The notes under the pieces are model-generated. The model had not been told where the DNA came from, made no database searches, and saw only the letters and a program-made list of their open reading frames with translations. This document shows, one piece after another, positions 14,803 through 64,000 of a stretch of 64,000 bases of DNA; position 1 is the stretch's first letter, and every line of letters starts with the position of its first letter. Position numbers and translations under genes: made by a program. Source of the stretch: Eledone cirrhosa (Eukaryota; Mollusca; Cephalopoda; Octopoda; Eledonidae). Location of the stretch: contig OZ024740.1 of assembly GCA_964016885.1 (NCBI GenBank), positions 204,242,929 to 204,306,928 on the forward strand, given 5' to 3'.

Positions 14803-17800
14803 ATGTCGAACCTAAACAGTTCGAATAACGGTGAAATGGAGACTAGAATGTCATGTGACAGACTCTCACCCAACAGGTGCTCCCTGGCTCAGCAGCAGGG
14901 ACCTGGCTGTCAACCAAATACTGCTGGTGTCGGAGGAAGAAGAAGAAGGAAAGGGACCAGAACCAACTGGACGAAAGAATTGAATAGAACTGTTATGCAA
15001 TGTTACCTGAAGAGTAACCCCAAGGAGAAAGGCTATAGGAAACGGATGCATAACATCTGGAACGAGATTTGTCTATTTAAATTAGATGAACAAAAATTGG
15101 CCGGGCAGGCTCGGGTAATAAGAACTAATGGGTGGATAAGCGAGCTGGAACTGGAGGAACTGAGCAGAGAGATTAGCTTAGAGATGGAGAGTGGAGTATG
15201 CCAGGCAAACGAGCCAGTGGGAAATGAAGGTGAAGAGGTCTAGAGAACGGAGGAACCACCCGAAGCAGACAATGATCTGAATGCTGAGATAAATAATACC
15301 TGGAACAGAGATACGGCCACTGAGGAGATGAATGCTGACGGGCTAGGACAAGATTTGGTTGATATCCTAAACTTAGTGGTAGATGAATTGAACAATGATA
15401 GTGGGAGACCTATGAACCTAAGATTTGTAGACAGGAAAAAGTTAAAAGAAACAACAGCTAAGGTAAACAAAGTCATCCCATACCTTGAGGCGAGGAGCCT
15501 TCACCAGTGCAACAATATCCTCAAAGCAACAGCAAATACGGTGAGGAAACTACTTGGTATAAAAGCCAGAGGAAACAACAGACAAGAAAGAGCAGAGCCT
15601 TGGTGGAAGAAACGACTGAGTGGTCAAATCAGGGAAATGAGAAATGACATTGGAAAGCTTGAGTCCCTACTGAATGGGACACTAAAAAACATAGACACTA
15701 AAAATAGACTGGAAATAAAGTACAAAACTAGGAGGAAAAAGCTAAATATTATCATAAAGGAACTGAAGCAACGCATTGTAGCAAAGAGTGCAAAAATCAG
15801 GCGATACGAGAACAGAGTCAGTCAGTATAGACAGAACCGCATGTTCGACAACAACCAGAAGATGCTGTTTGGACAGCTTGGAGGGAAAGAAAGAGGCAAC
15901 GACTTTATCCCTGAGGCGGAACAAACTAAAACATTCTGGAGAGGAATATGGGAGCAGGATGTTAAACATAATGACCAGGCAGTGTGGATTGAGACAGTAC
16001 AGAAGGAGATTGGTGAACAGGCACACCAACAAATTGATTTGAGTATCACAGTTGAAACTCTTAAGGGACAGGCCAAAAAACTAACCAACTGGAAATCACC
16101 AGGCCCAGATGGTGTGCAGGGCTATTGGATTAAAAATATAACATCCCTCCACCCGAAACTGACAACCATGTTCAATGACTGCTTGATGCCAGGTGAGGTA
16201 CCAGAGTGGTTGACAAAAGGTACCACAGTTCTGATAATGAAAGACCGAATCAAGGGTAATGATGTTACCAACTATAGACCTATCACATATCTGTCCGTAA
16301 TGTGGAAACTGTTGACAAGCATTATGTCTGAGGAAATCTACCATCACCTCCACACAAACAACTTGTTACCGGACGAACAGAAAGGATGCCGAAAGAAGTC
16401 ACGTGGTACAAAGGACCAATTACTTATTGAGAAGATGGTAATGAGGAATTGCAAGAGGAAACACACTGGTCTTGCCATGGGATGGATAGACTACAAAAAG
16501 GCATTTGACATGGTGCCTCATTCTTGGATCACCAAAAGCCTGGAGATCTTCAAGGTGGCAGATAACATCAGACAGTTGTTGGGCAAAAGTATGAAGTCCT
16601 GGGAAACAGAGTTAACATCAACTGGAGAATCCTTGGGAAGCGTGAAGATCAAGAGAGGTATCTTCCTGGGAGATAGTCTGTCCCCTCTGTTGTTTGTCCT
16701 TGCCCTGATGCCCCTGACCAGTGTACTGCGAAAAGTGAGAGCAGGATACAGGTTGGGAAAGGGAGGGCTTACCATCAATCACCTCCTCTTCATGGACGAT
16801 CTTAAGTTCTTCGGGAAGAGTGAGAAGGAGTTGGATGTGCTTGTTGACACTGTCCGTATTTTCAGCAATGATATATGTATTCAATTTGGTATTAGTAAGT
16901 GTGGAGTCATTGTGATGAAGAAGGGTAAGTTGAGCAGAAGTAACGGAATCCAGGTACCAACAGGTGAGATGATAAAGGAAATTGACTCTGAAGAAGGATA
17001 CAAGTATTTGGGCGTTCTGGAGGCTGATGACATCAAGAACAAAAAAATGAAGGAATTGATAAGAACTGAATACATTCGGAGAATAAGGAGCGTATTAAAT
17101 CACATCTGAACAGTAGGAATGCCATAAGTGCAGTAAATTCCCGAGCTGTGTCTATTATTAGGTACAGTGCGGGAATTCTGAGATGGAATTTTGCTGAACA
17201 AAAAGAAATGGATAGGAAGACTAGGAAGCTATTGACTATCTACAACATGTTCCACAAGAGGAGTGATGTCGATAGACTCTACTTAAGGAGATCTGAAGGT
17301 GAAAGAGGTCTTATCAGCATAGAGGACTGTGTTCAGATGGAGAAAAACAACCTACACAAATACGTGACTGGTAGTAAGGAGCCAATACTCAGAACTGTAC
17401 TGAAGGAGGGGACAATAGGCCAGGGGATGTCCAAGGAGGAAATAACATCAAGGATAAAGAGCAGCCTTCAGGAAAAATCCCTTCATAGTACCTTCTTTGA
17501 GAAAACTAAATTTAGAGATCCACAGACATGGAACTGGTTGAAAAGAGGAGACCTTAAAAAGGCTACAGAAGGAATGTTAATGGCTGCGCAGGAGCAGGCC
17601 CTCAAAACGAAATGGTTGAAACACCATATTTACAAGGAGGAGGCTAGCCCACTGTGCAGGATCTGTGGAGAGAGAGAGGAGACTGTGGCTCACATTGTAT
17701 CCGAGTGTAAACACCTAGCCCAGACTCACTATAAGGGCTGGAGACATGATGTGATGGGCAGGGTGATCCACTGGCACCTATGCAAAGTAAACAATTTACC

Positions 17801-18227
17801 ACATTCTGAGAAATGGTATGAGCATAAGCCAGAGGCTGTGATAGAAAACGATCAGGTGAAGGTGCTGTGGGATTTTAGGATACAGACGGACAAGAAACTG
17901 GAACACAATAGACCTGACCTGGTGGTTGTGGACAAAGAAAAAAGATCGTGCCTGATTGTGGATGTGGCCTGCCCATTCGACACGAGAGTGCAAGAGAAGG
18001 AGAAGGAGAAAATTAACCGATACCAGGACTTAAAGTGGGAGGTAAAGAGGATTTGGAACGGCCATGAAGTCAAAGTGATCCCGATTGTCATAGACGCACT
18101 AGGGACTATCTCAAAAAGTTTCCAGGGATGGTTAAAGAAAATTGGCCCCTTCACGCTTTTTGGAACGCTTCAAAAGGCATGCTTGCTTGGAACAGCAAGA
18201 ACCCTCCGATACGTCCTGAATATCTGA
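14803..18227 (+). pseudogene. RLE-type non-LTR retrotransposon polyprotein, nearly intact
   Basis: One long frame of about 1,140 codons is interrupted only by TAG at 15241-15243 and one frameshift near 17095. Domain order: a basic, Myb-like N-terminal region (GGRRRRKGTRTNWTKELNRT), a lysine-rich coiled region, RT with WKSPGPDGVQGYWI, NYRPITYLSVMWKLLT, GWIDYKKAFDMVPHSW, GIFLGDSLSPLLFVLAL and catalytic HLLFMDDLKF, then the zinc knuckle CRICGEREETVAHIVSEC (17650-17710) and a restriction-like endonuclease with RPDLVVVDKEKRSCLIVD. There is no AP-endonuclease. RT plus CCHC plus RLE is the R2/R4/NeSL-type layout; the exact clade is not settled here. The YxDD box is FMDD. ATG at 14803 is the first in frame. 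The tail runs into an AAT repeat at 18304. Confidence 0.85.
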
Positions 18228-22439: not shown

Positions 22440-22945
22440 GAATCATTCTATCTGATGCCCTAATGAATACCGCAGATCTTTCTATCTGATGCCCTAATGA
22501 ATACTGCAGATCATTCTATCTGATGTCCTAATGAATACCGCAGATCTTTCTATCTGATGTCCTAATGAATACTGCAGATCTTTCTATCTGATGTCCTAAT
22601 GAATACTGCAGATCATTCTATCTGATGTCCTAATGAATACTGCAGATCTTTCTATCTGATGTCCTAATGAATACTGCAGATCATTCTATCTGATGTCCTA
22701 ATGAATACCGCAGATCATTCTATCTGATGTCCTAATGAATACTGCAGATCTTTCTATCTGATGTCCTAATGAATACTGCAGATCTTTCTATCTGATGTCC
22801 TAATGAATACCGCAGATCATTCTATCTGATGTCCTAATGAATACCGCAGATCATTCTATCTGATGTCCTAATGAATACCGCAGATCTTTCTATCTGATGT
22901 CCTAATGAATACCGCAGATCTTTCTATCTGATGTCCTAATGAATT
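22440..22945. repeat. 34-bp minisatellite, about 15 copies
   Basis: The repeating unit is about 34 bp, built from 'gatctttctatctgatgtcc' and 'taatgaatactgca'. Two alternating variants (ctt/cat and actgc/accgc) mark subfamilies. Unit length is not a multiple of three, so it is not coding. Confidence 0.95.
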
Positions 22946-28470: not shown

Positions 28471-28917
28471 ATGAGGCTTGTTTGCATCATTGCAAACGAA
28501 TCAAATATTATTATTAGTATTCGAAAAACTCAGATTATTGTATTCAGTCATGTTGAGAGAATTTTTTTTTTTTTTTATGTGGCAAAGTCGGCCATTTATC
28601 GCTCGTATACAGGAAACTGACTGGCCAGTTTGCTGATATGCAAATCTGGCTGATCAGTGGATCTGCTAATATGCAGATCTGACTGATCAGCCAGTCTGTT
28701 AATATGCAAATCAGGCCGATCAGTTAGTAAGTAAACAGTGAACTGTACTGATGAAGGGTAATACCCAGAAACATTAGTGTCTGCAGTTCTGTTTACATGC
28801 CAACACAAGAGCAAGAATGAGGGGCTCATTCTACTGACATGGCTTTAAAAATGTGGCGTGTTTGCATAATTGCAAACGATTCGAATATTATTATTAATAT
28901 TCGAAAAACTCAGATTA
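28471..28917 (+). repeat. hammerhead-containing unit bounded by 67-bp direct repeats
   Basis: Direct repeats at 28471-28537 and 28851-28917 share 'ttgcaaacga', 'attattatta' and 'ttcgaaaaactcagatta'; their spacing is 380 bp. The unit carries a hammerhead ribozyme (28740-28789) and repeated motifs 'gatatgcaaatctggctgat' (28630-28720). A partial relative is at 30829-30955. The layout resembles small non-coding hammerhead retroelements (retrozyme type). That comparison is inference. Confidence 0.65.
28731..28796 (+). ncRNA. hammerhead ribozyme (type I), extended stem I
   Basis: Stem I GAACTGTA (28740-28747) pairs with TGCAGTTC (28782-28789) with one G-U pair. After a two-base bulge it extends through GTAAACA/TGTTTAC (28731-28737 with 28790-28796). 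The core has CTGATGA (28748-28754), stem II GGGT-AAT-ACCC, GAAA (28768-28771), stem III ACA/TGT with loop TTAG, and cleavage site GUC at 28781. Every core nucleotide of the canonical motif is present. Confidence 0.93.
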
Positions 28918-28921
28918 CATT

Positions 28922-28959
<38 letters not shown>

Positions 28960-30372: not shown

Positions 30373-30806
<434 letters not shown>

Positions 30807-30828
30807 AACAGCCTCTTTTGTAAGCCAT

Positions 30829-30947
30829 GTCAGTAGAATGAGCCCCTCAGTTCCGTTTGCATGCCAACACAAGAGCAAGAATGAAGGGTTCATTCTACTG
30901 ACATGGGTTATAAAAGAGGCTGTTTGCATAATTGCAAACGAATCGAA

Positions 30948-30955
<8 letters not shown>
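30829..30955. repeat. partial relative of the 28471-28917 unit
   Basis: It shares 'gccaacacaagagcaagaat', 'tcattctactgacatgg' and 'tttgcataattgcaaacga' with 28797-28890. The arms 'gtcagtagaatgagccc' and 'gggttcattctactgac' form an inverted repeat. The ribozyme part is missing here. Confidence 0.75.
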
Positions 30956-30999
<44 letters not shown>

Positions 31000-31039
31000 T
31001 TCAAAATATTAACAAAATAGATATTCTTGTGATCAATTA

Positions 31040-31106
31040 TATTTTATTATACATATTTCAGAGGTACTGAGTTAAGTTCAACAGTACGTCCTCATCAGAT
31101 AAAATA
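31040..31106 (-). ncRNA. hammerhead ribozyme (type I), left arm
   Basis: On the minus strand: TATTTTAT, CTGATGA, stem II (GGA plus GTACTG pairing CAGTAC plus TCT around a C-C mismatch), GAAA, ATATGTAT (self-pairing stem III), A, and ATAAAATA. The 8-bp stem I is perfect. Confidence 0.88.
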
Positions 31107-33251
31107 AGATGATGCATGACATGCCCTGACATAGTAGATAGTAGATGGTTAAGATTCAGTCATGGTAGTGATTAACATATGACAAAACTCAATATTTATA
31201 CCCTAATATTGAGAACATGAGAAAAATATATAATACAAACAATAGAGAGGGTGCGTGTAATACAGCTTAAAAAATACATGGCATCAATATAACAGTTAAA
31301 AAAATTTTTTTTAAACTACTGAAGAAAGAGGAAGGAAAGAAAAGTATAGAGGAAGAAACAGCTGATGTGATAATATATTTAGTAGGTGGCTCGAAAAACA
31401 GATGAAAGATGATTAAAGAGAGAGAGAGACAAAGGGGAGTAATTTATGTTCAAGTTTATAGATAATTACCCATATATGCAATATATATATCCAAATTTAT
31501 TTATTTAGTTGGCCGTTAATATTCAAAATATTTAATTGAAGTTATTTCAGAGTAATGAGTAATATTTTAGGTTTTAAAAGTTAATAGGTATTTGTATTAA
31601 TATTTTAATTATACTATCAAGTTTAATTTCTAAAATTCAAATTTTATGAAAACAAATTTAAAGCATTTACGAAACACGAGAAAGAAAATATATAATGCTT
31701 GTATACTCTCACGAAGGTAATCTTTACCAAAATTATTTATAATATTGACAACAGTTTATATAATATAGTTTATAAAATAAATATAGTTATAATTATTAAA
31801 GACTTTATGGTTAAATAGTTTGAATGCCTAAAGGATCAACCGGCCTTATAACTAAACTTAAAGAAGTTTGAATTTTTTATTATATATATGTGTTAATCAA
31901 AAAATATACAAGGATTTTAATGTCTAAAGACTTAAGTTGATACCTTTCCAATATATATAATATAATACAATAATATAATATAGTAAATAAGTTACTGAAA
32001 ATATTGTTAAAAAATATATATAGTTAAAATATATTGTTAAAAAATATTGTTAAAAAATTAATGTTTTATACCAATTATTTTCATTTAGTTGATGTATACT
32101 ATAAACATATAAGTCAAAACTACATGAGTCCTAATGATAGGGGCTAGATACTATAAAGACAAAAAATAAAAATAATGAATTTTTTGCGAAACTTAAAAAT
32201 GCCCAATATTAAAAATATATTATAAATGTAATAGGGTTTTAATATATAGTAGACAAAAGATACGTCTAAAATATTTTAGCTAATGCGATAGAAAGAGGAG
32301 CTAAATATTTGAAAAAGCCGAAGGTAATCTAAATTTAATTAAAATAAATTAAATTAAATTAAATTATATTATATTAAGTAAAAATTATTATATAAATTCG
32401 AAGACTTATAACAATATAGAGTCATTTGAGTATCTAAATTATTTATAAATGTAACTACGAGTATGTTATTTCACTAGATAAACATATTTGTACAACTATA
32501 TAGAGATATTATTATAGGTATTAATGAAATGGTATACATTTAATAAATAAATAATTATTAGTAATGCTATAATTGTAATTTTACCTCCAGTTCAGTGGAG
32601 AGAGAGAGACCAATATTTGTCGACTATTATGGTTTGTTATATTTATACCTAGATATATATAAAAAATAAATAAATGCAAATTTAACTTTCTGAATCCCCA
32701 AAACATATTCAAAATGAGTAAAATATGCAAACGCATGAATTATTATAATCGGTTCAATTATAATCGGTAAATTTACAAGTTAAATATCCAAATTATATAT
32801 TTAAAATAGAGACAGATAAATACAGAGCTGAATCAAAATTATAAATATCTAAAAAAAAAAAAAACCTAAGGTGTGCATATTTATCAAGTAAACAAGTTAT
32901 CAAAAGAGTATCCTTCATTCTAACATTAATTCTAACATTAATTCTAACATTAATTCTATCATAAATGATTAGAAGATAAAGTATTATTAAAGTTTTATGA
33001 CATCAGCTGTTTCTTCCTCTATACTTTTCTTTCCTTCCTCTTTCTTCAGTAGTTTTTTTTAAATTTTAACTGTTATATTGATGCCATGTATTTTTTAAGC
33101 TGTATTACACGCACCCTCTCTATTGTTTGTATTATATATTTTTCTCATATTCTCAATATTAGGGTATAAATATTGAGTTTTTTCATATGTTAATCACTAC
33201 CATGACTGAATCTTAACCATCTACTATGTCAGGGTCTGTCATGCATCATCT

Positions 33252-33318
33252 TATTTTATCTGATGAGGACGTACTGTTGAACTTAACTCAGTACCTCTGA
33301 AATATGTATAATAAAATA
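33252..33318 (+). ncRNA. hammerhead ribozyme (type I), right arm
   Basis: The same motif as 31040-31106 on the opposite strand: TATTTTAT (33252-33259), CTGATGA, GTACTG/CAGTAC stem II, GAAA (33299-33302), TATGTAT, predicted cleavage after A33310, ATAAAATA (33311-33318). Confidence 0.88.
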
Positions 33319-33362
33319 TAATTGATCACAAGAATATCTATTTTGTTAATATTTTGAATTAA

Positions 33363-33445
33363 TATTAATAACTCTGGAAAACCATTACTGTTGAGTGCTT
33401 CCAATCTATTGTAAAACTCATTCTTTGATGTATTCATTTAAATTT

Positions 33446-33498
<53 letters not shown>

Positions 33499-34681: not shown

Positions 34682-34744
34682 ATTTTATCTGATGAAAGCG
34701 CACCAAGTTTTGGTTGGTCGCCCTTGAAATATATATAATAAAAT
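34682..34744 (+). ncRNA. hammerhead ribozyme (type I)
   Basis: Stem I ATTTTAT (34682-34688) pairs with ATAAAAT (34738-34744). CTGATGA (34689-34695), a stem II with ACCAA/TTGGT and GCG/CGC, GAAA (34726-34729), ATATATAT as self-complementary stem III and predicted cleavage after A34737. It sits 30 bp after a LINE fragment without an inverted partner nearby. Confidence 0.82.
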
Positions 34745-34885: not shown

Positions 34886-35533
<648 letters not shown>

Positions 35534-35691
35534 ACCGGCCGATTATTTTCAACTAAAAAATTTTCGGGTTTTCGCAGTTATCTCCCTTACACTTCTCGCA
35601 CGCATTCTAGTATTGCCTGTGTGAAGTGACCGTGTTTCTGCGCCTGCGCGTTCGTACCATTGTCCTTCTTGTTCCAATAACCATGCCCATT

Positions 35692-35731
35692 CCGAGCTGA
35701 GGATCCGCTAAGGTGAAACAATTGTTCTCGG
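35692..35731 (+). ncRNA. degenerate hammerhead candidate in left pseudo-LTR
   Basis: CCGAG (35692-35696), CTGAGGA (core with G at the variable position 7), TCC-GCTAA-GGT, GAAA, ACAATTGT (palindromic stem III), T, CTCGG (35727-35731). Stem I is 5 bp. Stem II has only two good pairs, so activity is doubtful. Confidence 0.5.
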
Positions 35732-35854
35732 TATGTTGAACTAACTGTTGTGTAACCACTTCTACCTAACTCGTCCCATGGACTGAGTGCTCTACCACTA
35801 CAGATATTACCTTCCTGTGTTCTACCACTATATATATATATATATATATTTATA

Positions 35855-36378
35855 ACCGACACAAAGTAAAACTAGGATACTCCTGTGCTAAGAACATGAA
35901 GGCCCACATCACCAACAGCCCTAAGAGCAACACCCCACCAGAGTGCTCTTGCCGTAAGCCCGAAGCTTGTCCCCTTCAACAGCAATGTAACACACATGCT
36001 GTAGTTTATGAAGCTGTGGTCATTTCCAACCGACCAAATCAACCACAGGAGGTCAAATCCTATGTGGGTATGGCGGAGGGCCGATTTAAGGAACGCTTCC
36101 TGAACCACCGGTCGACCTTTAGGTACCCGGACAGACGTTCATCCACGAAACTCGCGAACCACGTATTGTCCCTCAAGGACGCAAGTATAGACTACTCCAT
36201 TCAATGGAAAGCCATCACTAAGTCCAAGCCATACGCAAGGGGAAATCTGTCGTGTGGACTATGTATTGATGAACGAATAGATATTCTAAAGAGATTATAC
36301 AATAGCGATTGCCTAAACACGAGAAATGAATTCTTCACATGTTGTCCACACATATTGAAATACCTCTTACGTAACTAG
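35855..36378 (+). pseudogene. Penelope-like GIY-YIG endonuclease domain
   Basis: The frame is open from the AT tract (KVKLGYSCAKN just before the ATG at 35896) to the stop at 36378. It has the Cys cluster CSCRKPEACPLQQQC, the GIY-YIG-like segment KSYVGMAEGRFKERFLNHRS, then LSLKDASIDYSIQW, SCGLCIDERIDIL and a CCPH ending. These are the same blocks, in the same order, as the element at 10992-12236, but in a clearly different lineage. The reverse transcriptase is missing, so it is a 5'-truncated copy whose endonuclease region is intact. Confidence 0.87.
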
Positions 36379-36561
36379 AAAGCTCCGGATTGAATTACAA
36401 CAGCATCCTAACTTTCTTATCAACTAGAAACTTTTCGGACTTTCGCAGTTATCTCCCTTACACCTCTCGCACGCATTTTAGTATTGCCTGTGTGAAGTGA
36501 TCGTTTCTACGCATGCGCGTTCGTACGGTTGTCCTTCCTGTTTTGTATAACCATATCCATT

Positions 36562-36601
36562 ACGAGCTAAGGATCCGCTAAGGTGAAACAATTGTTCTCG
36601 G
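36562..36601 (+). ncRNA. degenerate hammerhead candidate in right pseudo-LTR
   Basis: Equivalent to 35692-35731 but the core reads CTAAGGA, so the invariant G5 is lost. Stem I shrinks to CGAG/CTCG. Probably inactive. Confidence 0.4.
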
Positions 36602-36628
36602 TATGGTGAACTAACTGTTGTGTAACCA

Positions 36629-36680
<52 letters not shown>

Positions 36681-51032: not shown

Positions 51033-54000
51033 TTACAGATATATACTCAGAGTCGGCCCATTCACTCGGGCCATTCTTGCTTCTCTCACCCATCTTTCAA
51101 CAAAATGCTGGGAAGAGAGCACTTCCTTCTCTACTCTGATTTTCCTTTTCAAATGAAATTTGAAAAAGTCAATCAGAGCATCACCGAAGAGGTAAGTGCT
51201 CGTCTTCAGCCCTTTCAAACGTGTCCACCATACTATCTCTTTCGCCATGGCCACCAGACAGATAAAAACTGCCTGCCCTTCCCGGCTAAAGGAGGAGGGC
51301 GGGGCAATCCTCACGATAGACTCAGATGATAGCTGGATCCGTCCTAAACGCGACAGCAGGTGTTCGACATAAACCCACAAGTCAGCAATTTTCGGACACT
51401 GGACGAGTGCGTGCAGGACGGTTTCGTCGCCCTGCGCGCATCTCGGACATGCCCGGCTGACGGCACCTCCATGCCTGTAGAGTTTATCCCGAACTGGCAA
51501 GGCTCCTCGGTAGCACTGCCAGGCCAGAGATTTCTGGAAGTTGTCCATAGGCCCCGGCCCGAAAGTTCTTCCGAAGAGATTGGCTAGTTGATTTTCGTCG
51601 ACGCCTAGAGTTTCCCCAAGTACGTCGTCGCTCTTACCCTCCACTAATCCTCTATAGAACGCCGAGGTGGAGTTTCCACCGATCACATTGCCCGATTGGT
51701 CGAGGGCTGTGAGCGCCTGAAGACATTCCAGTCTCCAGGCGCTCCCTCTCGGTCTTCGCTTGACCCAGGACTGCAGCTCCGTCAAGGAAACGAGCTGGGG
51801 AAATACGTGTCTAGCAAACGGCGACCACACCTGATCACCGTCGAGGAAGAGGTGGAGATGTCGTAGCCTGAGCGCGTGCCTGCGCATCATCAGCCACGGC
51901 ATGCCCAGCCCTCCACGTAGCGGGTGTTGACAACAGATGCCTCTCCAGGTGCCGAGCTGCAGGCCCACTGACTTTTCTTGGTTGATCATTGCTCCTGTCA
52001 CCGCTTCGTATTCTCTTAGTGTAGTGCCGATCGCCTCGATGTGTTTGGCGTTCGACACCACTACGGTGACATCGTCGGCATATGCTGACACGGATCTTCC
52101 GCATCCTAGTTCGCGCGGGATGCCCCTCAACGTCTCCAGTTTGGGCAGTAATGGCTCGAGAGTCAATACGTACAAGAGGAACGAGAGGGGACATCCTTGG
52201 CGGACCGAGCGCATGATGTTGAACGGTTCCGACAGGTGACCGTTCACTCTCACCACAGAGCAGATGTCGCTGTGCATGGCAGCGATCCAGCCTCTGAAGA
52301 CGGGCCCAAAGCCAGCCGCCCTCAGGACTGCCGCTAGGTAACGATGGTCGACCCTATCGAAAGCTTTCGACTGATCTAAATTGATCAAGGACCCACCCGT
52401 GCCAGGTTCCCTAGCTACACTCTCTACGATGTATCGCATGAGGTGGAGGTTGTCGTGGATGGATCTATCGGGAATGGCGCATGTCTGCGCCTCTCCCACC
52501 AGACCACCAACGACAAGCGCCAACCTCTTTGCTAGCACCTAGGCCAAAATCTTGAACTCTGTGTTTAGCAGAGTTATGGGCCGGAAATTATCTATGTTAT
52601 CCCCCTTGTTCGGATCCTTTCTCAGCAGTACCACCGCTCCTCGGCTCACAGAACTGGGAATTCTCCCGTTCTGTTGCCAGTTGCAGTAGACGTCCGCCAA
52701 GAGGCCTCCGAACAAGTCTGGCATCTGTACGTAAAGTTCATAGGGCAGACCATCCAAACCAGGCAATTTACCCCTTGTGCAGCCAGTCATTGCCTCCCTT
52801 ACTTCAGCGGCTGTTATCGGCTTTTCGCAACACTTCGCCTCAGTGGCCGAGAGACCCCGAACAGCTGAGCGAAGTGTCGCTGAAAAGCTTCACACATTTG
52901 CCCGGGATCGAGTAACATGCGCCCGTCGTGGTCCACCAAAGACCGGATCGTGGCTTTGTTGCCACGACGCGCCTCCGCCACTCGGGCCCATTGAACGGCT
53001 TTCGTCCCCTCGTGTCTGAGAGCACGCACCCTTGCTCTGACAACGCAGCCTTCGTGCTTTGCATTGAAGAATTGGTCAAGGGCCAATTTCGCCGCAAGCA
53101 CGTCGGTCGCAATGCCTTTGCTAAGCGCCTCGTCTAATTTTCTAACTAGTTCTCCCTCTGCTCTATTTTTCTCTATTGCTAAAGCCTTACTAAACCTAAT
53201 GGATTCTATTCTAATCGCTCTTTTCAGAGCAAACCACCACTTGTTGTTGACGATGGCCCCCGTCAATGCCCGCTTAACTAGTTCGCTAATCCGGTCTCTG
53301 TAGGCCTTGCGCGCTGGTAAGGACGCGTTTAGCTTCCAGTAGCCGGGTCCTCGTCTATGAAGCCTATCTAAGTCAAGCACACAGATCACGAATTTGTGGT
53401 CCGTGTAGCTGACTATCTTGAATTGTGGACAGCCTATGCTAGACCTATCTATTTCCCTACAAAATACTCTATCTAGATATGATCTGGATGACCCTATGAG
53501 ATTTGTCCAAGTCCACATTGGCACATTCGGGAAATCCAATCGGTACCTGTCAGACAGTTCAAAACGCCTGAGCAGGTTGGTGAGGCTCTTGCACCCTCCA
53601 CCCCTATCCGCTAATCCCACACAGTCCCAGCGTGCATCTAAGATCCCGTTCCAGTGGCCCACTAACACTAAAGAGCGGGACGTTCCAAGAAAGGTCTCCA
53701 GACGCCGGAAGAAATCAGGCCGCCCTGCTCCTGTCGGGGCATAGACGGCCACTAGCCTGAAAGCTTGCCCGTCTCCGCTGGTCACGTCCAGCACCACCAA
53801 CTTACCCTCTGGGTCCAGGAAGATGGCCCGTATGGCGAGATCCAAACCTCTCCGAAAAAGCACAGCAACTCTTCCCCCCGATCCAGGACGGCTGGGAGAT
53901 GCGTACACATCGTAGCCGCCGAAGATCGGTGCGAAGGCCGGTGCTTCGGAGATTCTGGTCTCGCTGATGGCCACTACATCTATGTTTAGTGACCTGAGGT

Positions 54001-54076
54001 CGTTGAGCAGGTGACCCTGCTTCCATGACGACCCCAAGCCACGCGCATTTATGCTGCCTATTCTGAGTGAGTTCAT
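51033..54076 (-). pseudogene. LINE copy A ORF2: AP-endonuclease and reverse transcriptase
   Basis: The frame starts MNSLRIGSINARGLGSSWKQ (54076) and holds endonuclease blocks AISETRIS, FRLVAVYAPTGAGRPDFFRR, YLDRVF and SYTDHKFV. A deletion of about 55-60 bp with a frameshift near 52830 joins to PITAAEVREAM and LPGLDGLPYELYV. RT blocks NFRPITLLNTEFKILA (then TAG at 52539-52541 in place of Lys), LDQSKAFDRVDHRYL, VRQGCPLSFLLYV and SAYADDVTVVVS follow. After GLQLGTWRG about 106 codons found in copies B and C are missing in frame, joining directly to ICCQHPLRGG. The C-terminus has CPRCAQGDETVLHALVQC. In the first half H replaces D in GHWNGILD (B has GDWNGIID), a position of the endonuclease active site, so this copy is dead several times over. 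Confidence 0.9.
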
Positions 54077-56961: not shown

Positions 56962-59900
56962 CTATAGGCGCATGGTCAGAGTAGGCCCATTCACACGAGC
57001 CATTCTCGCCACATTCACCCACCTTTTAGCAAATGTACTGGGGGACAGCACTTCTCTCTCCACCCTCACCCTCCTTTCCAGGTGAAACTTGAAGAAGTTG
57101 ATGAGGGATTGGCCGAAAAGAAAAGTGTCTGTCTTTAGTCCTTTCAACCTGGTCCACCATATAATCTCTTTCGCAACTGCCACCAGACAGAGGAAAATGT
57201 CCTGCTCTTCCTGACCTAAGGAAGGTGGGGGCTCGATCTTCACTATGGACTCGGCCGATAGCCGGATTCGTTCCACACGCGACAGAAGCTGTTCGACATA
57301 ACTCCACAAGTCAGTAATGCACGGACATTGGACAAGTGCGTGCAGAACGGTTTCGTCGTTCTGTGCGCATCTTGGGCAGGTCCGTCTGACAGCACTTCCG
57401 TGCCTGTAGAGTTTATCCCGAACCGGCAGTACCCCCCCCCCCCCGGTAGCACTGCCAAGCGAGGGATTTCTGGAAATTGTCCATCGTCCCCGGCTCAAAA
57501 GTCCTCCGGTACAGACTGGTCAGTTCGACTTCGTCGAGGCCCAAAGCTTCTCCGAGTGCGTCATCGCACTTGCCCACCACTAATCCTCTATAGAACTCGA
57601 GAGTGGAAGTTCAACTGATCGCATTGCCAGGTGCCAGTCACCCAGTCTCGGTCTCTTCTTGGCCCAGGACTGCAGCTCAGTCAAAGAAATGAGCTGCGGA
57701 AAGGCCCGTCTGATAAACGGCGACCACACCTGTTCACCATTGAGGCAGAATATCTGGAGATGTCGCAGCCTCAACGCATGTCTGCGCATCATTAGCCACG
57801 GCATGCCCAGCCCTCCGCGTAGAGGGTGCTGGCAGCAGATGGACCGCCTCACCAACGGAACTTGTCCCCTCCACAAGAATTTGAAGAGGAGCCGTTCCAA
57901 CTTGACGAGGCGCGGACGGTGGCAAGGCACGACGGTTAGGCGGTAGTATATGACGGACGCGATGTACGCATTCGCCACCTCCGCGCGACCTTTCAGTGAT
58001 AGCTTCCTCCCAGCCCATTTTTTGGTGAGACTGGCTGCTCTGCTCGTTACCTCGTCCCAATTCTTTTCCACCTGGAGGTCTGGTCCGAACCAAACCCCGA
58101 GCAACTTTACCGGTCCGTCCGTCCAGCGCCCCACGACGCTGTTGGACGGCATGGGCTTGCCTCTCCAGGTTCCGAGCTGCAAGCCCACCGACTTTTCCGG
58201 GTTAAGTTTGGCTCCTGTCAACCTTTCATATTCCTTCAGTAAGGTGCCGACCACCTCGATTTCTGAGGTGTTCGACACCATCACGGTGATGTCGTCCGCA
58301 TAAGCCGACACCGTCTTTCCACGTCCCGGTTCGAGCGGGATGCCCTGCAACAGCTCCAGCTTCCGCAGTAAAGGCTCGAGAGTCAATACGTACAGAAAGG
58401 AAGAGAGAGGGCACCCTTGACGGACCGATCGGGAGAGCCGAAATGGTTCCGAGAGGTGGTCATTAACCTTGACCACCGAGCGTGTGCCGCTGTGCATTGC
58501 AACGATCCAGCTTCTAAAGACAGGGCCGAAGCCAGTCGCTTTGAGGACAAACTCCAGATACCGATGGTCGACCCTATCGAATCCTTTCGATTGATCTAAA
58601 TTGATCAGTGCCCCACCGAAGCCAGGTTTACACCCTACCCTCTCTATGATGTATCGCATGAGGTGGAGATTGTCGTGTATGGACCTGGCTGGGATTGCGC
58701 AAGTTTGCGCCTCCCCAACCAAATCCTCGACGACAAGCGCCAATCTCTTTGCTAACACCTTGGCCAAAATCTTAAACTCTGTGTTGAGCAGAGTTATGGG
58801 CCTGAAGTTGTATAATGTATCCCTCTTGTTCTCGTCTTTCCTTATCAGCGTCACCACTCCCCTGCTCACAGAACTGGGAATACTCCCATTCTGCTGCCAG
58901 TTACAGTAGAGTGCTTCGAGGAGTTCGGAGAACAAGTCTGGCATATTTACGTAAAGCTCGTAGGGCAGGCCATCCAAACCGGGTGACTTGCACCTCATGC
59001 AGCCGACAAGGGCGTCCTGAATTTCAGCTGAAGTAATCGGCCTTTCGCAGCGCTCAGCGTCGACCGTCAAGATGCGCGACAAGCCGTCAAGGTAGGGACT
59101 GTAATCCGCTACTCTCTCTGACTCGCCACTCTCCCTGAACAACCGAGCAAAGTGCTGGCGAAAGGCCTCACACATCCGCTTGGAATCGCTTATCTCGTGT
59201 CCGTCTCGGTCCGTCAAAGACCGAATTGTGGTTTTATTACCACGCTGCGCCTCTGCCACGCGGGCCCATCGAACAGCTTTAGTTCCCTCGATTCTCAGCG
59301 CACGCGCCTTAGCTCTGACAATGCAACCTTCGTGTTTGGCGTTGAAGAAATGGTCTAATGCCATTCTCGCCGCTAGCACGTCAGTTGCGATGCCACTACA
59401 AATACCCTCGTCTAACTTATCTACCAGCTCCCCCTCCTTTCTATTTTTCTCTAACGCTAGTTCTTTGCTGAACTCTATCGAAGTTACTCTAATCTCTCTT
59501 TTGAGAGCCCCCCACCATCTGTTGTTGATAATCCCCCCTGTCAACTTTTGCTTAACTAAATTGTTGACTCGGTCCCTGTAAGCCTTACGTGCCGGAAATG
59601 ACATGTTCAGCTTCCAGTAACCCGGTCCTAACCTACGCGTTTTATTTAGGTCGACCGTACAGATCACAAATTTGTGATCTGAATAGGCGACCGTTTTAAA
59701 AAGTGGACAGCCCACACTATTTCTATCTATTTTCCTAATGAAGATCCTGTCTATATACGATCTAGATGACCCCATTCGGTTGGTCCATGTCCATACTGGC
59801 ACATTGGGGAAATCTAGTCGATACCTGTCAGACAGTTGGAACTGGCTGAGTAGGTGCTTGAGGCTTTTGCACCCCCCGCTCCTATCGGCTACTCCCACAC

Positions 59901-60358
59901 AATCCCAGCGTGCGTCTATGATGCCATTCCAGTCCCCCGCTAACAGTAAAGGGCGAGACATACCCAGAAAGCTCTCCAGCCGCCTAAAGAAGTCAGGTCG
60001 TCCGGCCCCTGTAGGGGCATAGACGGCCACCAGTCTAAAGGCACCACCTTCGCTACTGCTCACATCCAAGACCACCAACTTACCGTCCGGGTCCCGGAAG
60101 ATCGACCTTACCTCGAGATTCCAGTCCTTTCCCAAACAGCACTGCCACCCCACCTCCCATTCCCGGCCTGCTAACAGATGCGAAGATCTGATAGTCGTCG
60201 AAAATGGGGGCTAGTGCGCGCGTGTCGGAAATTCTGGTCTCGCTTACGGCAATCACATCCATTTCCAGCGACCGGAGGTCGTTGAGCAGGGGACCCTGCT
60301 TCCAGGGTGACCCCAGGCCGCGAACATTTAAACTTCCTACTCTTAATATGGCTATATT
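56962..60358 (-). pseudogene. LINE copy B ORF2: AP-endonuclease and reverse transcriptase
   Basis: This is the most complete ORF2 of the window. The start near 60358 reads VGSLNVRGLGSPWKQGPLLN, a frameshift near 60130 follows, and 857 codons are open (60153-57580). Endonuclease blocks are VSETRIS, GDWNGIID, SYIDRIF and AYSDHKFVI. RT blocks are SPGLDGLPYELYV, NFRPITLLNTEFKILAKVLA, LDQSKGFDRVDHRYL, VRQGCPLSSFLYVLTLEPLL and VSAYADDITVMVS. The thumb region is GVWFGPDLQVEKNW ... AEVANAYIASVIYYRL. A small deletion near 57630 and a C-run at 57430-57442 break the frame before CPRCAQNDETVLHALVQC and RMARVNGPTLTMRL. Confidence 0.9.
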
Positions 60359-62614: not shown

Positions 62615-64000
62615 TTTCTTTATTAACCACAAGGGTTTACATAAAGTAGACATTAAGGACAGTGCAGGACAATGCAGGACGGTACAAGTGGGCATTTCTG
62701 CGTGTAAAAAACAAAAACAGAGGATGCAACAAAAAATAACAATGAAAAATTCCCCAATAGGGGGGAGACTTCGGAGGGACATTTGTGGAGAAAGCCCAGT
62801 AAAAAGCCACAATGACCCTGACCACCAAGGCAAGTGCCCTCTCCCAGTTTTCCACCTTTAATTTACAGATATATGCTCAGAGTAGGCCCATTCACTCGGG
62901 CCATTCTTGCTTCTCTCACCCATCTTTCAACAAAATGCTGGGAAGAGAGCACTTCCCTCTCTACTCTGATTTTCCTTTTCAAATGAAATTTGAAAAAGTC
63001 AATCAGAGCATCACCGAAGAGGTAAGTGCTCGTCTTCAGCCCTTTCAAACGTGTCCACCATACTATCTCTTTCACCATGGCCACCAGGCAGATAAAAACT
63101 GCCTGCCCTTCCCGGCTAAAGGAGGAGGGCGGGGCAATCCTCACGATGGACTCAGATGATAGCCGGATCCGTCCTAAACGCGACAGCAGGTGTTCGACAT
63201 AAACCCACAAGTCAGCAATTTTCGGACACTGGACGAGTGCGTGCAGGACGGTTTCGTCGCCCTGCGCGCATCTCGGACATGCCCGGCTGACGGCACCTCC
63301 ATGCCTGTAGAGTTTATCCCGAACTGGCAAGGCTCCTCGGTAGCACTGCCAGGCCAGAGATTTCTGGAAGTTGTCCATAGGCCCTGGCCCGAAAGTTCTT
63401 CCGAAGAGATTGGCTAGTTGATTTTCGTCGACGCCTAGAGTTTCCCCAAGTACGTCATCGCTCTTCCCCTCCACTAATCCTCTATAGAACGCCGAGGTGG
63501 AGTTTCCACCGATCACATTGCCCGATTGGTCGAGGGCTGTGAGCGCCTGAAGACATTCCAGTCTCCAGGCGCTCCCTCTCGGTCTTCGCTTGACCCAGGA
63601 CTGCAGCTCCGTCAAGGAAACGAGCTGGGGAAACACGCGCCTAGCAAACGGCGACCACACCTGATCACCGTCGAGGAAGAGGTGGAGATGTCGTAGCCTG
63701 AGCGCGTGCCTGCGCATCATCAGCCACGGCATGCCCAGCCCTCCACGTAGCGGGTGTTGACAACAGATGGACCGCCTGACCATCGGAGCGCGTCCCTTCC
63801 ACAAAAAGCGAAAGAGCAAACGCTCCAGCGCAGTCAGGCGAGGCTTAGGACAAGGTACGACGGTCAGACGGTAGCAGATGACGGACGCGATGTACGCGTT
63901 AGCCACCTCCGCTCGACCTTTCAGGGATAGCTTCCTCTCCGCCCATTTCTGGGTGAGAGAAGCCATCCTGCTCGTCACCTCGTCCCAGTTTTTGTCCGTC
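62552..64000 (-). mobile_element. Tx1/L1-like LINE, copy C (runs off the window)
   Basis: The 3' end is a (TAA)n tract (62552-62612) and the same 3' UTR as copy A ('gatttctttattaaccacaa' and 'ttacataaagtagacattaa'). The sequence is almost identical to 50771-51937, with only scattered substitutions and one 12-14-bp length difference near 62705-62735. Confidence 0.93.
62863..64000 (-). CDS. LINE copy C ORF2, C-terminal part (partial)
   Basis: The frame is open from the window edge to the stop at 62863. It holds WAERKLSLKGRAEVANAYIA, RSICCQHPLRGGLGMPWLMM, LVEGKSDDVLGETLGVDENQ, the Cys/His region CPRCAQGDETVLHALVQC and the end ARVNGPTLSIYL. It retains the roughly 106-codon segment missing from copy A. 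No stop or frameshift is visible in this part, so copy C may be the youngest of the three; its 5' part is outside the window. Confidence 0.88.
   Translation of the reverse strand, partial: TDKNWDEVTSRMASLTQKWAERKLSLKGRAEVANAYIASVICYRLTVVPCPKPRLTALERLLFRFLWKGRAPMVRRSICCQHPLRGGLGMPWLMMRRHALRLRHLHLFLDGDQVWSPFARRVFPQLVSLTELQSWVKRRPRGSAWRLECLQALTALDQSGNVIGGNSTSAFYRGLVEGKSDDVLGETLGVDENQLANLFGRTFGPGPMDNFQKSLAWQCYRGALPVRDKLYRHGGAVSRACPRCAQGDETVLHALVQCPKIADLWVYVEHLLSRLGRIRLSSESIVRIAPPSSFSREGQAVFICLVAMVKEIVWWTRLKGLKTSTYLFGDALIDFFKFHLKRKIRVEREVLSSQHFVERWVREARMARVNGPTLSIYL

Follow-up and report, generated by a model that had tools for sequence, protein, structure and literature searches.

Non-LTR retrozymes of metazoans are small non-coding units that carry type I hammerhead ribozymes. 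According to the accessible part of PMC7229834, they measure about 350-390 bp in Mytilus, about 225-245 bp in Acropora and 330/350 bp in axolotl. The enzyme that moves animal retrozymes is left open in that text: Penelope-like elements (PLEs) are proposed as a strong helper candidate, based on shared traits and co-occurrence, and LINEs are named as possible helpers too.

PLEs leave a distinctive insertion signature. For the Poseidon element PAc of Anolis, the PLE protein cuts and extends both strands at AT-rich DNA, and cDNA synthesis starts at two internal RNA sites; the resulting tail signature was called unique to PLEs (PMC11167929). In vitro, the start site used by PAc was alike for both DNA strands, and insertion also took place with mutants of its ribozyme, an argument against the cut being required (PMC11167929). 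Dead controls of the PAc ribozyme carried a C3 or G8 change (PMC11167929). In the Penelope element of Adineta vaga, the tail is found on one of two inverted pLTRs, as given in the consulted portion of PMC3846280.

Hammerheads within small repeated units are also known from newt satellite 2, for which the accessible text of PMC2220036 gives an snRNA-type promoter, and from plant LTR retrozymes, i.e., elements with type III hammerheads, LTRs, PBS and PPT. For cephalopods, the available portion of the giant squid paper (PMC6962438) counts 235 hammerhead 1 ribozymes. Among the listed titles and abstract starts of open-licence papers, we found no report of cephalopod retrozymes or of PLE tails on retrozymes.

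Here, we analyse a stretch of 64,000 nt from Eledone cirrhosa (in the following, the window), which contains two retrozyme insertions, A and R2, and a PLE remnant. Their features are collected in Table 1.

Table 1. Coordinates (window positions) of retrozyme and PLE features
Feature	Position	Strand	Details
Retrozyme insertion A	28471..28923	+	about 1.2 units; 5' end truncated at (AC)n; 3' end CATTTAT, then (TA)n
5' copy of 67-bp direct repeat	28471..28537	+	end of the preceding, truncated unit
Three 33-bp hairpin-forming repeats	28616..28724	+	ATGCAAAT octamers at 28638 and 28704
Type I hammerhead	28731..28796	+	core 28748-28781; cut between C28781 and U28782; stem I 8+6 bp
Post-ribozyme region with hairpins	28797..28917	+	includes 3' direct repeat 28851-28917; leads to 3' end site 1
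Copy B of family A	30806..30963		direct part 30848-30963; inverted piece 30806-30849 head-to-head before it
Retrozyme R2	35000..35532	-	420-bp unit; terminal repeats 35000-35111 and 35420-35532; 3' end abuts (TA)n
R2 hammerhead core	35273..35303	-	GUA cleavage site; stem II with U-U mismatch at its base; 1-bp stem III capped by CUAG tetraloop
PLE remnant	35543..36634	+	pLTRs 35543-35764 and 36414-36634 (88%)
Minimal hammerheads in PLE pLTRs	35697-35726; 36567-36596	+	second has one core change
Endonuclease-like ORF of PLE remnant	35896-36378	+	between the pLTRs

Results

Unit and ribozyme of insertion A

The earlier note on this DNA had described a 380-bp unit without ORF that is bounded by 67-bp direct repeats, and both points hold. 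The two repeats (67 nt, spacing 380) are 91% alike, i.e., 9% diverged, and the longest stop-to-stop frame that touches the unit without crossing (AC)n has 82 codons. An ORF for reverse transcriptase (RT) and GIY-YIG endonuclease, looked for in the unit, is absent, which sets A apart from PLEs. Other copies have units of 387 and 407 bp; the GC content of the A unit is 0.38. Folded in circular form, the unit is highly self-paired (MFE z-score of -8.1 based on 200 shuffles).

The 33-bp repeats with their octamers are a possible promoter and are given here as a lead. The octamer ATGCAAAT is found 11 times in the window (5.2 expected), and three of these occurrences are inside the two elements A and R2, which make up 1.5% of the window. 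The promoter of newt satellite 2 uses an octamer.

The hammerhead of A has all core bases and the GUC cleavage-site triplet that had been claimed for it, namely C3-A9 (CTGATGA, 28748-28754), G12-A14 (GAA) and C17 at 28781. The first base after the predicted cut is thus U28782, the position at which the earlier note had placed the junction of a circular RNA. Stem II is formed by GGGU/ACCC with loop AAU and stem III by ACA/UGU with loop UUAG. Stem I, previously put at about 15 pairs, comprises 14 canonical or G-U pairs in two blocks that flank an internal loop. The ribozyme is closed by stems II and III and open at stem I, i.e., it is of type I, unlike the hammerheads of plant LTR retrozymes; it is distinguished from the hammerheads of PLEs by a longer stem I and by a true stem III.

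A strict hammerhead descriptor matches 3 places in the window compared to a mean of 0.05 per shuffle, and strong descriptor hits were found in none of 300 shuffles of the window. For a looser scan, 7 places are found versus a mean of 1.3 and a maximum of 3 in 40 shuffles. Rfam at gathering threshold reports no match for the A hammerhead, and its E-value mode, applied to 801 bases, gives 20 sub-threshold matches with no hammerhead among them; the A hammerhead scores 15.1 bits against HH9 (gathering 52). Pattern searches of a viral contig set and of a separate genome contig set yielded 0 matches each.

Two properties of the ribozyme had gone unmentioned in the earlier note. The base of helix II carries an A-A mismatch, which is present in 31/33 aligned copies and which we did not find described in the accessible part of PMC7229834. 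Furthermore, nearest-neighbour folding of the lone 66-mer favours a non-hammerhead structure (-22.7 vs. -15.4 kcal/mol for the hammerhead), because ACUGAUG can pair with CAUUAGU. That is, within 28747-28778 the catalytic core is complementary to the stem III strand. Such pairing might switch the ribozyme off as a monomer. We infer self-cleavage of A and the formation of RNA circles, with a monomer whose predicted minimum fold is not the hammerhead.

Family A across the genome

The earlier note had named uniqueness of the unit as a finding that would speak against its reading; the unit is multicopy. With A or G allowed at one position, the 34-nt hammerhead core is found 994 times across the 2.98-Gb genome, compared to 0 times for its reversed control, and a similarity search provides at least 69 matches when 40 of 4047 first-look candidates are scored. 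We fetched 39 family A loci for the reading of ends and junctions. In these loci, the insertions are dispersed and measure about one unit, with partial-tandem ones among them. Of the proposed tandem copies with a period of about 380 bp, the multicopy and partial-tandem character is found; the window insertion comprises about 1.2 units and is not a long array. Copies were mapped to the unit of L010 as reference; L012 is unsuitable since its damaged ribozyme causes artefact breaks at unit position 363. BLAST breaks at unit position 1 were left out as an artefact of the linear query.

For the ribozyme, we aligned the 33 of 62 matches (the window's included) that come to within 6 nt of each end. 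The remaining 29 were dropped, such that the following pair counts come from the better-kept copies. The full hammerhead core is kept in 23/33 copies, and the 25-pair structure shows standard pairs in 95.9% of the cells compared to 20-47% for slid controls. Four further outer pairs (GGCA/UGCC in the majority sequence) are each formed in 30 to 33 of the 33 copies; the window copy A retains part of them. Double changes are observed for 2 pairs, a score reached by 17/500 shuffles, and with so few of them the covariation within the family lends weak support to the structure. Conservation of the ribozyme does not exceed that of the remaining unit (ranks of 202 and 237 out of 407), i.e., there is no evidence of selection for it among the aligned copies.

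In five loci (L020, L031, L038, L039 and L043), SINE-like sequence abuts the retrozyme at its ATTATT stretch, as if SINEs had inserted repeatedly into the same AT-rich hairpin of the element.

Family A insertions end at two fixed sites

Family A sequence runs through CTCAGATTA and then CATTTATTGTATTCAGCC..., and its copies terminate at one of two places: behind CATTTAT (site 1), or within a T-rich stretch that lies about 30-35 nt further on (site 2). Reading the 39 loci by sequence, we find 34 ends at site 1 and 18 at site 2, next to 34 internal junctions. The site 2 count takes in L042, the plus end of which runs off the locus; L042 is not among the pairs discussed below. A cruder rule based on alignment length splits the same ends into 24 and 28.

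More than half of the ends are flanked by TA-rich sequence: a TA run follows 20/34 site 1 ends and 9/18 site 2 ends (29/52 in total; none at the other 23/52), compared to 1.8% of random window positions for 40-nt stretches and 2.4% for the 60-nt stretches used for site 2. Target-site duplications of metazoan non-LTR retrozymes are longer than 4 bp when present, and the TA flanks found here would mask one.

Head-to-head arrangements that are readable at both outer ends are found in 14/39 loci. For 13 of these 14, one arm ends at each site (two-sided p-value 0.0018, for a rule that was both discovered and scored on one set of loci, i.e., not blind). The exception is L023, for which both arms were called site 1 with a blurred reading. 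Copy B in the window reaches microsatellites at its outer ends before either end site.

We also related the starts of the copies to the ribozyme. Among 74 mapped segments, 5 begin within 3 nt of the predicted cut (1.1 expected, P 0.005), namely in L013, L023, L030, L031 and copy B, the direct part of which begins 2 nt after the cut position. L022, printed at unit position 1, was left out because 8 more bases match upstream. The 5' ends at the cut would fit a cut RNA as template; the test is small and post hoc, and its result suggestive at most.

The second retrozyme R2

R2 has a GC content of 0.37 and terminal direct repeats of 113 bp (97%) with its hammerhead between them. As for A, its unit is highly self-paired in circular form (MFE z-score of -7.1, 150 shuffles). 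A local alignment of R2 and A scores 23 versus a shuffled mean of 13.1 (reached by 0/300), where the aligned stretch is partly AT-rich. Both details of the R2 hammerhead have counterparts in the accessible part of PMC7229834: axolotl HHR_Amex2 likewise has U-U at the base of helix II, and the 1-bp stem III with palindromic tetraloop resembles a salamander motif.

When 39 of 2260 candidates are scored, relatives of R2 show identities of up to 98%, with most full-length ones at 96-97%. Many matches are stepped by about 420 bp and spread over 6.8 and 9.7 kb, i.e., they form tandem arrays. In 5/6 head-to-head pairs of R2, the two arms end at different sites, which are separated by about 60-67 nt. 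Both ends were read for L078; the other four pairs rest on coordinates, with one end read in the case of L079. The sixth pair involves a 98-bp minus piece (C28:75.7 Mb) that ends at neither site.

A PLE of the same genome shows the same ends

The endonuclease-like ORF of the PLE remnant has many genomic copies (150 of 44950 candidates scored), and searches with it against Pfam and proteins gave no match. A cysteine motif precedes a GIY-YIG-like stretch, which we take to mark a PLE. The PLE identity of the ORF rests on these motifs together with the flanking hammerhead pLTRs and the many copies.

In the 30 fetched loci of this PLE family, the readable ends fall on a short site (TCTA) or on a second one (TTCTACCACTA) that follows after about 66 nt; in most cases TA comes next. 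In each of the 10 opposite-strand pairs that are readable at both ends, the two arms use different sites. Nine of them are independent, since L055 and L056 share 99% identity over 3.4 kb and thus represent one insertion; L061 was not counted, as its plus arm extends beyond the locus. The stretch between the two sites, i.e., the tail, is about 30-35 nt long for family A and 60-67 nt for R2, compared to 30-40 bp for published PLEs and about 66 nt for the PLE of this genome. Beyond R2's own window copy, no sequence common to family A or R2 and this one PLE family (30 loci) was found.

Discussion

Insertion A fits the class of metazoan non-LTR retrozymes, as the earlier note had suspected, and so does R2. 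In terms of the accessible part of PMC7229834, A shares with them the type I hammerhead, a unit within 150-450 bp, the lack of an ORF, a GC content below 50%, tandem or partial-tandem copies, a highly self-paired circular form and the co-occurrence with PLEs. Two-site ends of the kind seen for A and R2 are not mentioned for retrozymes in that part of the source. They are instead a property of PLEs, where PAc (PMC11167929) and, as far as the available portion of PMC3846280 goes, Penelope of Adineta vaga show two fixed 3' ends with a tail between them, inverted arms in head-to-head order of which one carries the tail, AT-rich targets and a hammerhead in the repeat. Given that the two-site tail is described as unique to PLEs and that a PLE of the same genome behaves alike, PLE machinery most likely mobilises retrozymes of the A/R2 type, as judged from their ends. 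We consider it probable that insertion A represents an animal non-LTR retrozyme copied into the genome, with a cycle that uses a PLE protein in trans.

The proximity to PLEs could also mean that A is a deletion derivative or a solo-pLTR form of a PLE, which would have kept the ribozyme and ends of the PLE and lost its ORF. Two-site ends and head-to-head arms as in PLEs agree with this, as do the hammerheads within the PLE pLTRs of the window. We nevertheless regard such an origin as unlikely: the unit shows no similarity to the single PLE family that was compared (30 loci), it resembles retrozymes in its size and strong self-pairing, and tandem arrays with a step of about 420 bp exist for R2. 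Mobilisation of the retrozyme through a LINE would fit the LINE-type reverse transcriptase ORFs within the window as well as the naming of LINEs as potential helpers in the accessible part of PMC7229834. Two fixed internal start sites are the signature of PLE tails (PMC11167929) and are common to A and a PLE of the same genome, which leaves a LINE helper with little probability.

Still less credit, if by a small step, is due to an ordinary satellite or short tandem repeat that was amplified by recombination and carries the ribozyme as a relic without a role in mobility. The long arrays of R2 copies and a ribozyme that is not specially conserved are what it would predict, but family A copies are dispersed, about one unit long and have fixed 3' ends, often at TA tracts. 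The head-to-head arms readable at both ends in 14/39 loci speak against it as well, and two fixed end sites with one per arm are not predicted by recombination.

For the retrozyme with a PLE helper, the cycle would run as follows. The unit would be transcribed and its hammerheads would cut unit-length RNA between C and U. The RNA ends might then be ligated to a circle, possibly by tRNA ligase in analogy to what the accessible part of PMC7229834 describes, or the RNA might stay linear. A PLE protein supplied in trans would nick AT-rich DNA, and reverse transcription would begin at one of the two fixed internal RNA sites, from either DNA strand. The outcome would be 5'-truncated, partial-tandem or head-to-head copies. 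In a wider picture, towards which we lean with some reserve, retrozymes would be to PLEs what SINEs are to LINEs. Here, the PLE protein would recognise the retrozyme RNA and use the same two cDNA starts on both cut strands, sometimes on a ribozyme-cut template, and arrays would stem from the copying of circles.

The two-site, one-per-arm ends provide structural evidence for the PLE-helper proposal in the accessible part of PMC7229834 and bear on the question of the moving enzyme that is left open there. The proposal is now directly testable with purified PLE protein and retrozyme RNA. What is new is the integration signature of retrozymes; A and R2 are new sequence families of a known class.

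Further features of the window

Inverted repeats of 383 bp (30991-31373 and 32995-33367, 95%) face outward within 30991-33447. Each contains a hammerhead-like motif and there is no long ORF between them. The left arm ends at (TA)n, while the right arm continues for about 80 nt before (TA)n; this extension looks like the same one-arm tail. A decayed hammerhead-like motif at 34689-34737 (+) with a TTTTAT/ATAAAA stem I and a long stem II resembles the pair at 31098 and 33260 in its frame.

LINE-type remnants with RVT_1, Exo_endo_phos and zf-RVT matches are located at 15328-18227 (+) as well as at 51033-54076, 57580-60153 and 62863-63999 (-). The tandem repeats at 25.0-26.8 kb are presumably SINE-like. 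A further tandem repeat at 22442-22944 has spacings in multiples of 68 bp and is 96% alike.
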